From the NCBI GenBank assembly GCA_015709675.1, contig CP054182.1, positions 2,211,448 to 2,275,447 of the forward strand: DNA of 64,000 bases. The letters run 5' to 3'. The DNA comes from Ignavibacteriales bacterium (GTDB taxonomy: Bacteria; Bacteroidota; Ignavibacteria; Ignavibacteriales; Ignavibacteriaceae). Positions 50,022 through 56,476 of this stretch are shown piece by piece (within the stretch, counting starts at the first letter, position 1; each line of letters begins with the position of its first letter). The position numbers and the translations under genes are program-made. A model generated the notes under the pieces. That model saw nothing but the letters and a program-made list of their open reading frames with translations. It did no database searches and was not told where the DNA came from.

Positions 50022-50620
50022 GCAGGCCGGCAAAAATCGCAGTTACCGGGGGTATCGGTTCCGGCAAAACGCTTTTTTGCAGATATCTTTCTGAACTTGG
50101 TGAAACAGTGCTGTTTGCTGATACCATTGCAAAGAGAATTATGGCGGAAGATTCAGTTGTCCGCCAAAAGATTGAAACACTTCTTGGCGAAGAATCCTAC
50201 CTCAACGGAAAACCGAATAATCCATATATAGCCGCAAAAGTATTTTCTGATCCTGAACTCCTTGCCGGTCTGAATGCAATCGTGCATCCGGCAGTAGGGG
50301 CAGAATCCCGGATTCTTATGGACCGGATACTTCAGGAAAAACCGCGTGTATTTTACGAAGCTGCACTCATCTTTGAAGCCAATCTGCAAAAACTGTTTGA
50401 CAAAGTGGTACTCATTACCGCGCCTGATCATCTGCGCATCAGCAGGGCAATGGAGCGTGATAATATATCCCGCGAAAAAGTTGAGGAGAGGATGAGAAAT
50501 CAGATGAACGAAATTACAAAATCAAAACTCGCGGATCTGGTAATCGTAAATGATTCTGACGAACATTCACTCCGCCGGAAAGCCGTTAATTTACTCAATG
50601 AACTTAGCGATGAGCAGTAA
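50018..50620 (+). CDS. coaE: Dephospho-CoA kinase CoaE
   Basis: CoaE phosphorylates dephospho-CoA in the last step of coenzyme A synthesis. The 200-residue product opens with the P-loop TGGIGSGKTLF (about residues 10-20) and has VIHPAVG-type IVHPAVG, and the lid segment AMERDNISREKVEERM typical of the family. It overlaps rny by four bases and the pheA-like gene overlaps its end. Confidence 0.95.
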   Translation: MSRPAKIAVTGGIGSGKTLFCRYLSELGETVLFADTIAKRIMAEDSVVRQKIETLLGEESYLNGKPNNPYIAAKVFSDPELLAGLNAIVHPAVGAESRILMDRILQEKPRVFYEAALIFEANLQKLFDKVVLITAPDHLRISRAMERDNISREKVEERMRNQMNEITKSKLADLVIVNDSDEHSLRRKAVNLLNELSDEQ

Positions 50621-51434
50621 AATACCTGTTATTTCAATACAGGGGGAGCCGGAATCTTACAGTTACAAGACTGTTGTAAAAAGATTCGGACAGTCTTTCG
50701 TTATCCGTTACCGGAAAACATTCCAGGATGCGTTTAATGACGTTCAAAACGGGGATGCTGATTTCGCCCTCCTGCCGTTTATCAATTTCATAACAGGAGA
50801 AATTCCTGAAAACTACTCCCTGCTCTCTGAGTTTCAGTTTCCAGTACACGAGGCAATCACTACAAAACTCGACCATGCACTTCTTGGGAAGCCGGGACTG
50901 GACCTGAAAGCCGTTAAGAATATATATTCTCACCAGCAGGCACTGGCGCAGTGTACGGATTTTTTGCAGCAGGAGGAGTTTGCCTCCGTTAAAATTAAAG
51001 AGGTGCATGATACTGCGGGGGCGAAACTCTACGTGGAAAAAAGCCCCGGAGATTCGGCAATTATTGCTTCCAAATCTTCCGCAAAAGCACTGGGACTAAG
51101 TGTCTTGGCCTACCCGATTCAGAATGATAAACGGAATAAAACCACGTTTTTTCTGATTTCTGCAAAACAGAGGAAGCCATCCGAAGAGGATTATCTGGCT
51201 GTGTTGGGCACGCCTTCCGGAACTGAGGAAGATGCCCAGATGATTTTTAATGTCAGGGATACATCCGTTTCTGTACTCAGAATCTTTACCGAAAAACTGC
51301 CCCGCAAAGCTGCCAAAACATGGTTCCTGATAAAGTTTAAGGGGGACCTAACCCAGAAAAAAGAGATGTACAGTCTGCTCAGGCGTGAAAAGCTTTTCAG
51401 CTATATGAGCGGACTCTTTGGCGGCTCTCTCTGA
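50610..51434 (+). CDS. pheA: Prephenate dehydratase-like protein with altered motifs
   Basis: Prephenate dehydratase converts prephenate to phenylpyruvate for phenylalanine synthesis. Homology shows in IQGEPESYSYKTV, LPFINFITGEI and IYSHQQALAQC. Several usual residues are changed: the ENS motif reads INF, the TRF motif reads TTF, and GSYSE reads ESYSY. Asn, Ser, Gln and the first Thr of the active site seem kept. The C-terminal part lacks the ESRP motif of the regulatory ACT domain, so Phe feedback may be absent. There is no chorismate mutase domain; one is fused to MltG three genes downstream. ATG 50610 is chosen, but ATG 50598 is also in frame. Confidence 0.78.
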   Translation: MSSKIPVISIQGEPESYSYKTVVKRFGQSFVIRYRKTFQDAFNDVQNGDADFALLPFINFITGEIPENYSLLSEFQFPVHEAITTKLDHALLGKPGLDLKAVKNIYSHQQALAQCTDFLQQEEFASVKIKEVHDTAGAKLYVEKSPGDSAIIASKSSAKALGLSVLAYPIQNDKRNKTTFFLISAKQRKPSEEDYLAVLGTPSGTEEDAQMIFNVRDTSVSVLRIFTEKLPRKAAKTWFLIKFKGDLTQKKEMYSLLRREKLFSYMSGLFGGSL

Positions 51435-51488: not shown

Positions 51489-52388
51489 GTGAGCTTATTT
51501 AATAATCTAATTGTATCAGCAGTTAAACTGATGCCTAAACCGGTAGTTAGATTTTTTTCAAACCGCTATATTGCCGGAGACCTCCTGAGCGATGCGGTCC
51601 GGCTGACCAGAGACCTGAACACCAAAGGAATTTATACAACCATTGATGTTCTTGGCGAAGCTATTACTACAAAAGAAGAGGCGATAATCGCCCACCGGCA
51701 ATGCCTGGAAGTTCTGGATGCCATTCATAATGAAAAGCTGATGTCAAATCTTTCCATTAAACCTACCCAGATGGCTCTGCAGATAGATTTTGATTTTTGC
51801 GTCAGCCAGGTTCGTGAGTTGTGCGCAAAAGCAAAAGAGTATGGCACATTCGTCCGCCTTGATATGGAAGATGCAACAACTACTGATGATATCCTTCGCC
51901 TGCACAGAATTCTCAGGGGTGAATTTGATAATGTAGGTGTGGTTTTGCAGTCGTATTTAAGGAGAACCGTATCAGATATTGAAGAAAATAAAGACATTGC
52001 TCTGAACTACCGTCTTTGCAAAGGTATTTATATAGAGCCGGCAGAGATAGCCTTTAAAGAGAGAAAAGAAGTACAGGATAATTACCTCCTTTCTCTCAGA
52101 AAAATGTTTGATGCTGGTGCGTATGTCGGAATTGCCACCCATGATAACATTCTGATTGAAGGCTCAAAGAAAATTATAAAAGAAATGAATATTGATTCCT
52201 CCCGCTATGAGTTCCAGATGCTCCTGGGAGTAAAAGAAGACCTGCGTGATCAGCTTAATACTCAGGGCTTTAAGGTCCGGATTTATGTCCCGTTCGGCAA
52301 GGACTGGTATAAATATTCTATCAGACGCTTGAAGGAGAATCCGCAGGTTGCAGGCCACATTTTCAAAAATATCTTCTCCCTGAATTAA
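51489..52388 (+). CDS. Proline dehydrogenase (FAD-dependent, monofunctional)
   Basis: The enzyme oxidises proline to pyrroline-5-carboxylate and passes electrons to the quinone pool through FAD. The 299-residue product is a TIM-barrel ProDH with LSIKPTQMALQID, FVRLDMEDATTTDDIL, GVVLQSYLRRT, YRLCKGIYIEP and the C-terminal YVPFGKDWYKYSIRRLKENP, which contains the conserved R-R-L-x-E-N substrate site. The start is GTG 51489 with GGAG upstream. The stop overlaps the tsaD start by one base. No P5C dehydrogenase is in the window. Confidence 0.93.
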   Translation: MSLFNNLIVSAVKLMPKPVVRFFSNRYIAGDLLSDAVRLTRDLNTKGIYTTIDVLGEAITTKEEAIIAHRQCLEVLDAIHNEKLMSNLSIKPTQMALQIDFDFCVSQVRELCAKAKEYGTFVRLDMEDATTTDDILRLHRILRGEFDNVGVVLQSYLRRTVSDIEENKDIALNYRLCKGIYIEPAEIAFKERKEVQDNYLLSLRKMFDAGAYVGIATHDNILIEGSKKIIKEMNIDSSRYEFQMLLGVKEDLRDQLNTQGFKVRIYVPFGKDWYKYSIRRLKENPQVAGHIFKNIFSLN

Positions 52389-53419
52389 TGGTCATTCTTG
52401 GAATTGAAACTTCCTGCGATGAAACATCAGCAGCGGTGATTGCTGACGGCAGGGTAACAGCTAATCTGATATATACACAGCAGATGCATGCCACCTACGG
52501 CGGTGTTATACCGGAACTTTCGAGCCGGGCACATCTTCTTAAAATTGCACCTTTGGTAAGAACTTCACTCAGCAAAGCAGGAATTGAACTTAAAGATGTG
52601 CATGTTGTTGCAGCAACTGCCGGTCCCGGGCTCATTGGCTCGCTGATTGTTGGTTACACTTTTGCACAGGGGCTTGCGCTTAGTCTGGGTAAGCCATTTA
52701 TTCCGGTAAATCATATTGAAGGGCACATCTATTCCGGTTTTCTCATGAATCCGGCGCCGGAATTTCCGGCACTGATTCTTGTGGTTTCAGGCGGTCATAC
52801 ATTGCTCCTTAATGTGAGGAGTCATACATCGTACCAGATATTAGGAACTACGGCGGATGATGCAGCAGGAGAGGCATTTGATAAAGTTGCCAAACTAATG
52901 AATCTTGGATATCCGGGGGGACCTGCTATTCAGAAGTCAGCGGAAAAAGCTGTCAGAAAAAATATCTCTTTCCCTATTGCTGATGTAAAAGGCGATTATA
53001 ATTTTTCCTACAGCGGTCTTAAAACAAGTGTTTTGCGATATATACAGAAGAACTTTCCTGACGGAGTTATTGCTCCTGAAGAACAATCGGAAATAGCCTA
53101 TGGTTTTCAGGAATCCGCAGTTGGCGCCTTAATTGCAAAAACAGAACTTGCTCTCAGACAAGGAAGTTACCGGTCAATATCAGTTGCCGGAGGAGTTGCA
53201 GCAAATGGCCGTCTGAGAGACCGCCTTGCAGATCTCTCGGCAAAATACCAGGTGCCATTAGTGGTTCCAGCTTTCGAATTCTGTACCGATAACGGCGCAA
53301 TGATTGCTGCCCGTGCAAAAGCACTGATTGAATCCGGCATACCGGATTATGGCATTCAGGAACCATTCCCTTCATTCAAATCAGTATTTGCTGATGCTCC
53401 TTTAGTAAAAAGGAGTTAG
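52388..53419 (+). CDS. tsaD: tRNA N6-adenosine threonylcarbamoyltransferase TsaD
   Basis: TsaD transfers threonylcarbamoyl to A37 of ANN-decoding tRNAs. The 343-residue product has ETSCDETSAA at the N-terminus, the iron-binding HIEGH (about residues 114-118), VVSGGHT, and the ATP-binding GGVAANGRLR and FCTDNGAMIAA. It is complete. The next gene starts one base after its stop with a ribosome-binding site (AAGGAG) inside the tsaD end. Confidence 0.97.
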   Translation: MVILGIETSCDETSAAVIADGRVTANLIYTQQMHATYGGVIPELSSRAHLLKIAPLVRTSLSKAGIELKDVHVVAATAGPGLIGSLIVGYTFAQGLALSLGKPFIPVNHIEGHIYSGFLMNPAPEFPALILVVSGGHTLLLNVRSHTSYQILGTTADDAAGEAFDKVAKLMNLGYPGGPAIQKSAEKAVRKNISFPIADVKGDYNFSYSGLKTSVLRYIQKNFPDGVIAPEEQSEIAYGFQESAVGALIAKTELALRQGSYRSISVAGGVAANGRLRDRLADLSAKYQVPLVVPAFEFCTDNGAMIAARAKALIESGIPDYGIQEPFPSFKSVFADAPLVKRS

Positions 53420-53420
53420 A

Positions 53421-54800
53421 TTGGCAGGGAAAAATAGTTTTGGTGAAATGCCTCCTGAAGACCGGGAGAAAATTCTGGATGCCCTGAGAAATGAAGTTGA
53501 TGATATTGATAAGGAGCTTGTTGAACTTCTGAGAAAACGGACCATACGCAGTATTCTGATTGGCAGAATTAAAAGATCACTTAATCAGCCGACCTACTCA
53601 CCTGAGAGGGAAAAAGACATCAATAAGAAGATCAGTAACTACCTGAAAGAACCGCTCAGACTCGATGCACTCTGGCGGATATACGAAAGAATTCTTGATC
53701 AGTCCCGGGCAGTACAGCGCGAGGAAGCGGAAAAAGGAGAGATATATGATGTGCCGGTTCCTAAACTTTCCCGCGAAAAGAAAAAACTGCTCCCTGAAAA
53801 GGACTGGCGGGTAATCGGAGTTGTATTTGCAGTAATCTTTTTGCTTCTGGTATATCTGTTTTTCGGATCGAATACTCCTGCAAAAGAACTCCCCGTTAAA
53901 ATTGAAATTAAACCGGGGCAGACTGCAGATCAGGTTGTCCGAGTGCTTGATGATGCAGGCCTGGTACCCACCCCATCCTTAATGAAACTTGCACTGCTCA
54001 TCAGCGGGAATACAACAAATATAGTATCAGCACGTTACACCATTACTGAACCAATGAGTTATATGGGGTTGTCCTCCTTTTTAGCATCCGGAAAAGGGGA
54101 TCATATCACACGGGTTGATCTTTATGACGGTATATCCAATAACGGGATTGCTTCAGTACTTGACGGAGAAAAGATCGCTGATAAGGATGCTCTTCTTTCG
54201 GCTATGAATAATCCTGCTGACGCAAAGCAGAGAACCGGAAAATTTGAAAGTATGCGCGGGTTTCTTTTGCCGGGTTCATACTATTTTTACAGGAACAGCT
54301 CTATTGAAGAGATAATTGACTCGCTCAATACTAACTGGCAGAATGCAATTACCGATGAAATGAAGAGAAGCGCTGAACAGATGGGGCGCACCATTCAGGA
54401 TTTAACTGTTCTGGCATCAATCATTGAGGGAGAAACCAATTATAAACCGGAAATGAAAAGAATCTCCGGAGTATATCATAACCGGCTCCGGATCAGAATG
54501 CCTCTGCAGGCAGATCCAACCATACAATTTATTGCACCGCCCGGAACTACCCGCATTACAGGAAAAGAACTGCGAATTAAATCTCCTTACAATACCTATC
54601 TCAATGCCGGACTTCCCCCGGGGCCGATTAATAACCCTGGCAGAGCTGCGTTAGAGGCGGCGTTCTTCCCTGAAAATCACGGATATCTTTATTTTGTTGT
54701 GGACCCAGAATCTGGCAGGCATGTTTTCACCAGGACCTATGCCGAACATCGTAAAGAAGCAAAAAAATACCATCTGTGGATTAAGGCAAGGCAGAAATGA
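53421..54800 (+). CDS. mltG: Endolytic transglycosylase MltG with an N-terminal chorismate mutase domain
   Basis: The 459-residue product starts at TTG 53421 with AAGGAG upstream. Residues about 17-102 form an AroQ-type chorismate mutase domain in the cytoplasm. Residues matching the E. coli active site are present at exact or near-exact spacing: Arg23, Arg40, Lys51, Arg63, Glu64 and Gln99; only the position of Asp48 differs (Ser60). A transmembrane helix (130-148) follows, then a YceG/MltG domain with catalytic Glu336 in LASIIEGETN, LQADPTIQF and SPYNTYLNAGLPPGPI. MltG cuts nascent glycan strands. I know of no common family with this fusion. The upstream pheA-like gene lacks a mutase. Confidence 0.92.
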   Translation: MAGKNSFGEMPPEDREKILDALRNEVDDIDKELVELLRKRTIRSILIGRIKRSLNQPTYSPEREKDINKKISNYLKEPLRLDALWRIYERILDQSRAVQREEAEKGEIYDVPVPKLSREKKKLLPEKDWRVIGVVFAVIFLLLVYLFFGSNTPAKELPVKIEIKPGQTADQVVRVLDDAGLVPTPSLMKLALLISGNTTNIVSARYTITEPMSYMGLSSFLASGKGDHITRVDLYDGISNNGIASVLDGEKIADKDALLSAMNNPADAKQRTGKFESMRGFLLPGSYYFYRNSSIEEIIDSLNTNWQNAITDEMKRSAEQMGRTIQDLTVLASIIEGETNYKPEMKRISGVYHNRLRIRMPLQADPTIQFIAPPGTTRITGKELRIKSPYNTYLNAGLPPGPINNPGRAALEAAFFPENHGYLYFVVDPESGRHVFTRTYAEHRKEAKKYHLWIKARQK

Positions 54801-56476
54801 AATTTTACTCATATTTCACTCTTCTCCTGATTTCAGTTTTCCTTGCCGGATGCGCAAATCAGCTCCCTCCGGGCGGTGGCCCTGTTGACACAGTTCCTCC
54901 GGAGATTATTGAAGTATATCCGGAGAATGGCACTATCGGTTTTTCTGGCGATTTTTTTGAACTGACCTTCTCCGAGTATGTTGACAAACGTTCCCTCAAG
55001 GATGCAATCTTTATCTCACCCGGAATGCAGGGAGAACTGGAACTTGACTGGAGCGGTAAAAGTGTCCGTGTTTATTTCCCTGAAAAACTGATTGACAGTA
55101 TTACCTATACTATAAGTATCGGTACCGATGTGATAGATTATAATAACCGCAACAGAATGGCTCAGTCTTTCATATTTGCGTTTTCGACCGGTGATAAGAT
55201 TGATAATTTTACTGCAGGGGGCAGAATATATGCTGATAAACCCTCCGGAACTCTTCTCTTTGCCTATCGTAATGCTGATGATACGCTGAATCCGGCCTTA
55301 GCAAAACCGGATTATATATCACAGGCCGGCACTAAAGGGGAATTCCTTTTCACCGGTCTTGCTTCGGGAAGATACCGGATATTCGCGGTGAATGAAGATA
55401 TTAAAGATAAAATATATGATCCTGAAAAAGATAAAATAGGCGTGCCCCATACAGAACCTGTTCTTTCAGATAAAGATACCGGATACACCGGACTTAATAT
55501 GATACTTTTTACGGAAGACAGAACTTCGCCAAAACTGCTGTCTGCCAGCATGCTTGACAGAAATCACGTACTTCTGAGTTTTTCCGAAGAACTTGATGCT
55601 GCCGGTTTATCAACTTCGCAGTTCAGAATTATAGATTCTGCTGATCAAAATATAATTCTCCCTTACTACATCTTTAAGGGACGAAGCAAAAATAAAGAGC
55701 TTTTTCTGGCAATCCGCGATTCGGTTAGTTTGACGGGAAATAACTTTGTGATAGCTGAGGGGCTTGAGGATGCTGATCGAAACCGTACTGAATCAGATGC
55801 TGTAAGTCTGACCGTCTCCGACAGACCGGACACGATTAAACCTTCTTTCACCAGCGTGGATCCGGCGTACAATTCAAAAAATGTTGATTATCTTGGTGCA
55901 GAATTTACCTTCTCACTGGATGATGGTATATCACTTAAAGAACTGGAAGGCAATCTCGTACTTCAGGATACCTTAAAGAATGTGATACCATCTGAAATTC
56001 AAAGGATTGACGATGCATCGTTCCGTGTGCTTCCGAAAACTTCCCTCAAGGCAGGGACGGATTATCTTATTTCCTTCAATCTGAAGTTTTTGAAGGATGC
56101 AGCGGGCAATTTTTCTGATTCAATTTATGTATATAAGTTTAAAACTCTTTCTGAACTTGACTTTACTGGGCTGAGCGGGACTACTCAGGGAGTGCGCCTA
56201 CAGAACAATCCAAAACTTATTCTGGAGAGCACTGAGCGCAAAAAGCTGAGATACATTACACCGGTTGAGGAAAACGGGACGTTTGATTTTAAGAGAGTAC
56301 TGCCGGGGAAATATAACCTGATGCTTCTTTACGACAGAAATGATGATGGTGAAATTACGCACGGAACGGTCACACCATATATTTCGTCTGAAGAATTCCT
56401 TTACCACCCGGAGGAAATTAATCTGATACCACGATGGGCTGTTCTGGATTTTATCTTTAACGCGGAATCTGATTAG
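54797..56476 (+). CDS. Lipoprotein with bacterial Ig-like (Big_5/SbsA) domains
   Basis: The 559-residue product has a lipoprotein signal (LLISVFLAGCANQ, Cys19) followed by a GGGPVDTVPPEIIEVYPENG start typical of Big_5 lipoproteins. Domains: Ig-like (about residues 30-125), an SpaA/carboxypeptidase-regulatory-like insertion (about 138-210, ending in YDPEKDKIG), a second Ig-like region and a third around residues 345-445, and a final calcium-like DRNDDGEI loop. Such lipoproteins are nearly universal in Bacteroidota-related genomes; their function is unknown. The start overlaps the mltG end by four bases. It converges with the nuclease gene four bases away. Confidence 0.82.
   Translation: MKFYSYFTLLLISVFLAGCANQLPPGGGPVDTVPPEIIEVYPENGTIGFSGDFFELTFSEYVDKRSLKDAIFISPGMQGELELDWSGKSVRVYFPEKLIDSITYTISIGTDVIDYNNRNRMAQSFIFAFSTGDKIDNFTAGGRIYADKPSGTLLFAYRNADDTLNPALAKPDYISQAGTKGEFLFTGLASGRYRIFAVNEDIKDKIYDPEKDKIGVPHTEPVLSDKDTGYTGLNMILFTEDRTSPKLLSASMLDRNHVLLSFSEELDAAGLSTSQFRIIDSADQNIILPYYIFKGRSKNKELFLAIRDSVSLTGNNFVIAEGLEDADRNRTESDAVSLTVSDRPDTIKPSFTSVDPAYNSKNVDYLGAEFTFSLDDGISLKELEGNLVLQDTLKNVIPSEIQRIDDASFRVLPKTSLKAGTDYLISFNLKFLKDAAGNFSDSIYVYKFKTLSELDFTGLSGTTQGVRLQNNPKLILESTERKKLRYITPVEENGTFDFKRVLPGKYNLMLLYDRNDDGEITHGTVTPYISSEEFLYHPEEINLIPRWAVLDFIFNAESD

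Follow-up and report, generated by a model that had tools for sequence, protein, structure and literature searches.

The window (here, the whole 64,000-nucleotide stretch of DNA that was analysed) belongs to a source genome that consists of one 4.21-Mb contig and is 98% complete. It carries a tight run of genes encoding a prephenate dehydratase (PDT), a proline dehydrogenase, TsaD, a protein in which an AroQ-type chorismate mutase (CM) precedes the endolytic transglycosylase MltG, and a putative lipoprotein with a Big_5 domain, and this order is conserved in relatives (Table 1). PDT is present in most of the relatives' loci that are of sufficient length, and in families f8 and f55 trpA lies directly upstream (domain-checked in L070 and assigned by similarity in the others). 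The spacing of the genes indicates that an enzyme expected to make prephenate and one expected to use it are probably encoded on a common transcript. The listed start of the PDT gene overlaps coaE by 71 bases, and comparison with the L082 homologue (274 aa) suggests that the true start may lie approximately 20 codons downstream.

Table 1. Features of the CM-MltG locus (positions are those of the window)
Feature	Position	Strand	Basis or remark
Prephenate dehydratase (PDT) lacking a CM domain; third gene 5' of the fusion gene	50550..51434	+	Pfam PDT, E 2.7e-41
Proline dehydrogenase, conserved neighbour	51489..52388	+	Pfam Pro_dh; order kept in relatives
tsaD, conserved neighbour, ending 1 nt 5' of the fusion gene	52388..53419	+	TIGR03723; order kept in relatives
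AAGGAG, Shine-Dalgarno-like site, 5 nt 5' of the TTG start	53410..53415	+	Sequence
CM-MltG fusion gene, 459 aa	53421..54800	+	Single open frame, TTG start, stop-free inside
AroQ chorismate mutase domain, residues 22-100	53484..53720	+	Pfam CM_2, AF2 helices; cytoplasmic side inferred
Linker, residues 101-125	53721..53795	+	Low pLDDT; length variable among relatives
Transmembrane helix, residues 126-148	53796..53864	+	AF2 helix; hydrophobic run 3' of a Lys/Arg-rich segment
MltG/YceG endolytic transglycosylase domain, residues 161-449	53901..54767	+	Pfam YceG, NCBIfam TIGR00247
Codon of Glu338, equivalent to Glu218 of E. coli MltG	54432..54434	+	Alignment with E. coli MltG
Putative lipoprotein gene with a Big_5 domain, 4-nt overlap with the fusion gene	54797..56476	+	Pfam Big_5; order kept in relatives

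A first-pass annotation of this DNA had proposed that an AroQ domain, placed at residues 17-102, is fused to MltG, and Pfam searches confirm this, with both domains scoring above their cut-offs on one open reading frame. The CM_2 family (PF01817) matches residues 22-100 (E 6.7e-15; 55.5 bits against a cut-off of 27), and YceG (PF02618) matches residues 161-449 (E 1.5e-71; 241.5 bits against a cut-off of 32.4). Among the NCBIfam models, TIGR00247 reaches 194.1 bits (cut-off 103.4) and MltG is the top name for the fusion protein, the chorismate mutase models scoring 42-44 bits, below their own cut-offs. The AroQ fold is also that of isochorismate-pyruvate lyase (Z 8.8 in the structure comparison); this enzyme (PchB) was ruled out, as the lyase model yields 12.9 bits (cut-off 126), far below the mutase models.

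Alignment to the E. coli CM places R23, R40, K51, R63, E64 and Q99 at the positions of Arg11, Arg28, Lys39, Arg51, Glu52 and Gln88, with S60 at the place of Asp48. These correspondences, together with spacings of 17, 11 and 12 residues, had been read from the letters alone and are all correct; in addition, S95 occupies the place of Ser84. The catalytic glutamate of the MltG part, however, had been wrongly placed at Glu336. It is Glu338: the E. coli residue, Glu218, is the latter of the two glutamates in ASIIEKE and aligns to position 338. Indeed, this position is Glu in 106 of 106 MltG sequences, and position 336 varies between E, K, Q and D. The former misnaming of MltG as 'aminodeoxychorismate lyase' is also real, PDB entry 2r1f still being titled 'predicted aminodeoxychorismate lyase'.

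The structure of the fusion protein was predicted with AlphaFold2 (AF2) from a 39-row alignment, which gave a pLDDT of 85.7, as against 34.9 from the single sequence. The three-helix fold expected of an AroQ domain is found in this model: a long first helix (residues 12-53) is followed by helices at 61-72 and 81-105, by the membrane helix at 126-148 and then by MltG. The CM part superposes on 2d8e with 0.9 Å over 82 alignment columns and on E. coli CM (1ecm) with 1.4 Å, and in VIA it is matched by 5j6f (Z 11.6; rmsd 1.0 Å over 90 residues) and by 1ecm (Z 10.5). The MltG part resembles 8yoa (VIA Z 17.8), 8yq7, 4iiw and the E. coli structure 2r1f. Residues 111-130, in the stretch that leads from the CM helices to the membrane helix, have a mean pLDDT of only 61-72.

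Conservation of the CM domain was assessed across 37 distinct fused sequences. The counterparts of Arg11, Arg28, Lys39, Arg51 and Glu52 are invariant in all 37 and in 51 of 51 CMs encoded by separate genes adjacent to mltG. The Ser84 place holds Ser in 36 of the 37 fusions, and the Gln88 place holds Gln in 22 and Glu in 15. Asp48, which touches the ligand in the E. coli CM active site, is represented by Ser or Asn in all fusions, and by S, D, V, N, T or M in the unfused neighbours. Since this place varies in the unfused CMs as well, the alignment indicates that the residue is not diagnostic. The mean pairwise identity among the fusions is 54% for the CM part versus 46% for the MltG part, which makes the CM part slightly the better conserved. 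As far as the sequences can tell, this pattern of conservation is unlike that of a relic.

Family searches of the 4.21-Mb contig revealed no second CM_2 domain, no AroH and no second YceG in the source genome, and found chorismate synthase, a prephenate dehydrogenase domain and prephenate dehydratase to be present. The relatives that bear names comprise Ignavibacteriaceae, Ignavibacteriales and further Ignavibacteria MAGs, and Ignavibacteriaceae bacterium SJ115 is the closest of them, with 87% identity over the CM region. The 37 fused sequences stem from three or more families within the class. Within the window's family (61 genomes), 13 genomes possess the fusion and about 21 a separate aroQ directly 5' of mltG; outside it, the fusion occurs in all seven sampled genomes of f55, which belong to one genus, and in eight of the 13 genomes that represent genus g47 of f8. 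A search for other CMs in the fused genomes, which the first-pass annotation had called for, found the fusion to be the sole CM_2 in 27 of 28, the exception being G402, which has an additional CM-PDT-ACT protein. A CM elsewhere in the genome was found in none of the 13 fused members of the window's family, in 7 of the 21 with an adjacent aroQ and in 18 of the 24 without a CM at mltG (Fisher p 1e-5 for fused versus no-CM-at-mltG genomes, with related genomes treated as independent).

Other CM arrangements were also noted. A single chain of 671 aa with CM_2, prephenate dehydratase and DAHP synthase domains is encoded at L230:596-2611 (G004), and CM-starting frames of approximately 675 aa are present in L041, L043, L044, L048, L052, L053, L054, L056 and L057. 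Frames of this length occur in family members whose CM is unfused to MltG, the domain check covering L041 and L230. Searches returned no CM_2 match at all for G001, G030, G047, G055 (genus g2), G002, G036 and G058, and some of the genomes of this kind are near-complete.

A separate aroQ immediately before mltG is seen throughout the window's phylum and in Calditrichota (L119), a Caldisericaceae-labelled MAG (L124) and a Chlorobiales MAG (L126), the two genes often sharing a 4-base ATGA overlap. In the loci of a further set of 30 genomes, a non-random sample hand-picked partly by ORF length, short stand-alone CMs adjoin mltG with few exceptions (L213, L215, L228). Since unfused aroQ genes lie directly 5' of mltG both across the phylum and in outgroups, separate adjacent genes are most likely ancestral and the fusion derived. 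In a tree built from 106 MltG rows, the label 'fused' switches at least 13 times, with at least four of these switches forced by strongly supported branches, and genus g47 contains both fused and separate states. A single clade of fused sequences was rejected (p-AU 2.5e-51). On this phylogenetic evidence, aroQ and mltG appear to have been joined or split several times in the phylum, and within a sub-lineage one early fusion followed by splits is possible.

The junctions themselves suggest how little such a change may require. In f52, aroQ and mltG share a reading frame and are separated by one stop, and the start codon directly follows the stop in five of six genomes; at L140, L141, L142, L145 and L146 the stop-start reads TAG ATG, TAA ATG or TAG GTG, one substitution from fusion. 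Several fusions of the window's family retain, within the linker, a Met where the separate MltG starts. Taken together, these junctions and the retained Met imply that joining could need one or two base changes. At L073:1483-2830 (G099), where aroQ and mltG are separate, the linker region is shifted by one base compared with that of fused relatives in its genus, which suggests either a recent split or a MAG error. In L087, L088, L094, L097, L104, L106 and L109, a box resembling TTATCTTTG/TTATTTTTG, presumably of the Bacteroidota -7 type, lies a few bases 5' of the aroQ or fusion start; this suggests that the aroQ-mltG mRNA may be leaderless in many relatives, the window instead having a Shine-Dalgarno site.

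Several explanations compete with that of a working CM carried by MltG. Two genes could have been merged by a sequencing or assembly error, and single indels do distinguish some MAG relatives, as does the shift of one base in L073; the 37 distinct fused sequences, however, come from at least three families and many independent assemblies, and the source genome is one contig. A sequencing frameshift, which had been raised as grounds for discarding the fusion, is refuted by the presence of the fusion as a single ORF in 13 members of the window's family and in 15 genomes from two further families, and we regard an artefact as extremely improbable. The replacement of Asp48 by Ser or Asn might point to a non-catalytic relic, or to a module that serves dimerisation alone, with the true CM encoded elsewhere. 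This is very unlikely, considering that no other CM_2 or AroH was found in the genome, even though prephenate-using enzymes are present, and that the five core catalytic residues are unchanged in every fusion. The one ORF might also yield two proteins, a free CM and a free MltG, through proteolysis or internal initiation: several fused relatives keep Met-Lys/Arg exactly at the position where the separate MltG starts, and in the window an AAGGAG is followed, after 11 nt, by an in-frame GTG. Yet the window and many fusions lack the internal Met, which is moreover not preceded by a conserved ribosome site, so that this outcome seems quite improbable.

A different proposal is that the ligand state or dimer of the CM sets the activity, position or abundance of MltG, such that glycan cutting would track aromatic precursor supply and the fusion would fix a pre-existing partnership of separate proteins. 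The aroQ-mltG pair, conserved in Calditrichota as well as across the phylum, has repeatedly been fused, and such a pattern is often a mark of functional partners. Furthermore, mltG adjoins pabC, a chorismate-pathway gene, in E. coli, as observed here, and in Pseudomonas aeruginosa, where pabC lies beside an mltG homologue among folate-peptidoglycan syntenies (PMC11898565). In Enterococcus faecalis, IreK phosphorylates the cytoplasmic segment of MltG, with consequences for cephalosporin resistance (PMC12369325), so that MltG can be controlled from the cytoplasmic side. In the light of the conserved aroQ-mltG pair, the pabC-mltG neighbourhood in E. coli and the published pabC synteny, the statement of the first-pass annotation that aromatic biosynthesis and glycan-strand cleavage have no known link went too far. 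In M. tuberculosis, mltG may lie beside aroE.

Nevertheless, catalysis alone fully explains both the conservation of the active site and the sole-CM status, many genomes have mltG without an adjacent CM, and tsaD, proline dehydrogenase, PDT and trpA are neighbours too, as in an ordinary mixed operon. We know of no link between any of these neighbours and MltG. The linker, counted from the Gln88 place to the membrane helix, measures 21-40 residues among relatives (28-33 in most members of f1 and f55, 21 in the f1 member L014 and 37-40 in f8), has little sequence in common between families and is predicted with low confidence; such variability in length and sequence fits a tether better than a signal transducer. 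No positive evidence was obtained that the domain senses chorismate or prephenate and tunes MltG, as had been suggested, and a regulatory link is doubtful. It is likewise unlikely that CM and MltG form a functional unit across Bacteroidota/Ignavibacteria, in which prephenate flux or the CM dimer controls glycan cutting and of which the fusion is the trace.

The explanation that we favour, with a probability of roughly 0.75, is that of a bifunctional membrane-anchored protein, in which an active housekeeping CM has been joined to MltG by fusion of operon neighbours and the two activities are probably independent. The N-terminal AroQ domain would be the cell's working chorismate mutase, converting chorismate to prephenate in the cytoplasm, and two copies of it would assemble into the intertwined AroQ dimer; the prephenate produced would supply the PDT from the same gene run. 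The linker and one transmembrane helix would connect the CM to MltG, which would cleave nascent glycan strands outside the membrane via Glu338, and the CM dimer may also draw two MltG domains together. The fusion would stem from the long-standing adjacency, and frequent overlap, of aroQ and mltG in the phylum, their joining requiring loss of the aroQ stop or a change of frame. The idea of a working mutase anchored at the membrane, already put forward in the first-pass annotation, thus appears well supported by sequence features, namely the sole-CM status, the invariant active-site residues in 37 fusions and the proximity of PDT or trpA. Two observations nonetheless weigh against the independent bifunctional protein: every fusion has Ser or Asn in place of Asp48, and the repeated joining of the same gene pair may reflect selection for a functional link instead of chance.

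The CM part shares its three-helix fold and CM_2 family with AroQ enzymes such as the E. coli PheA CM (1ecm) and the stand-alone CMs of Helicobacter pylori (6al9) and Thermus (2d8d), and keeps their core catalytic residues as well as the Ser84 and Gln88 counterparts. It differs from these proteins in the Ser at the Asp48 place, and in that its C terminus leads into a transmembrane helix and MltG, and not into prephenate dehydratase, prephenate dehydrogenase or DAHP synthase. The other part has the single N-terminal membrane helix, YceG domain and catalytic Glu of MltG (E. coli; Listeria Lmo1499, 4iiw; 8yoa); while E. coli MltG begins directly with the membrane helix, a folded enzyme domain of approximately 105 residues comes first here. 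Fusion of AroQ to a second enzyme is known from CM-PDT, CM-PDH, DAHPS-CM and exported CM-CDT proteins, the latter being the closest tested precedent and having gained no catalytic benefit from the joining (PMC10520331). The partners in those fusions belong to the same pathway, whereas the partner here is a cell-wall enzyme across the membrane. PheA and DAHPS-CM exemplify AroQ fusions with a regulatory link between the parts. Enterococcus faecalis MltG similarly has an N-terminal cytoplasmic extension (PMC12369325), although that segment is predicted to be disordered and is not an enzyme, in contrast to the predicted enzyme domain of the present protein.

In a search of the open-licence PMC literature, no paper describing a CM-MltG fusion was found, and the architecture may already be listed in domain databases. 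As the best-scoring family model of the fusion protein is MltG, annotation can overlook its chorismate mutase. The fusion connects an enzyme of metabolism with one that acts on the wall beyond the membrane, each of which is recognisable only there in the source genome, and in many Ignavibacterium relatives, judging from family matches, the only recognisable CM is fused to the only copy of MltG. Finally, because the pair is adjacent and unfused across the phylum and has repeatedly been joined or split, the fused and unfused relatives represent a natural experiment on the coupling of aromatic metabolism and peptidoglycan processing.
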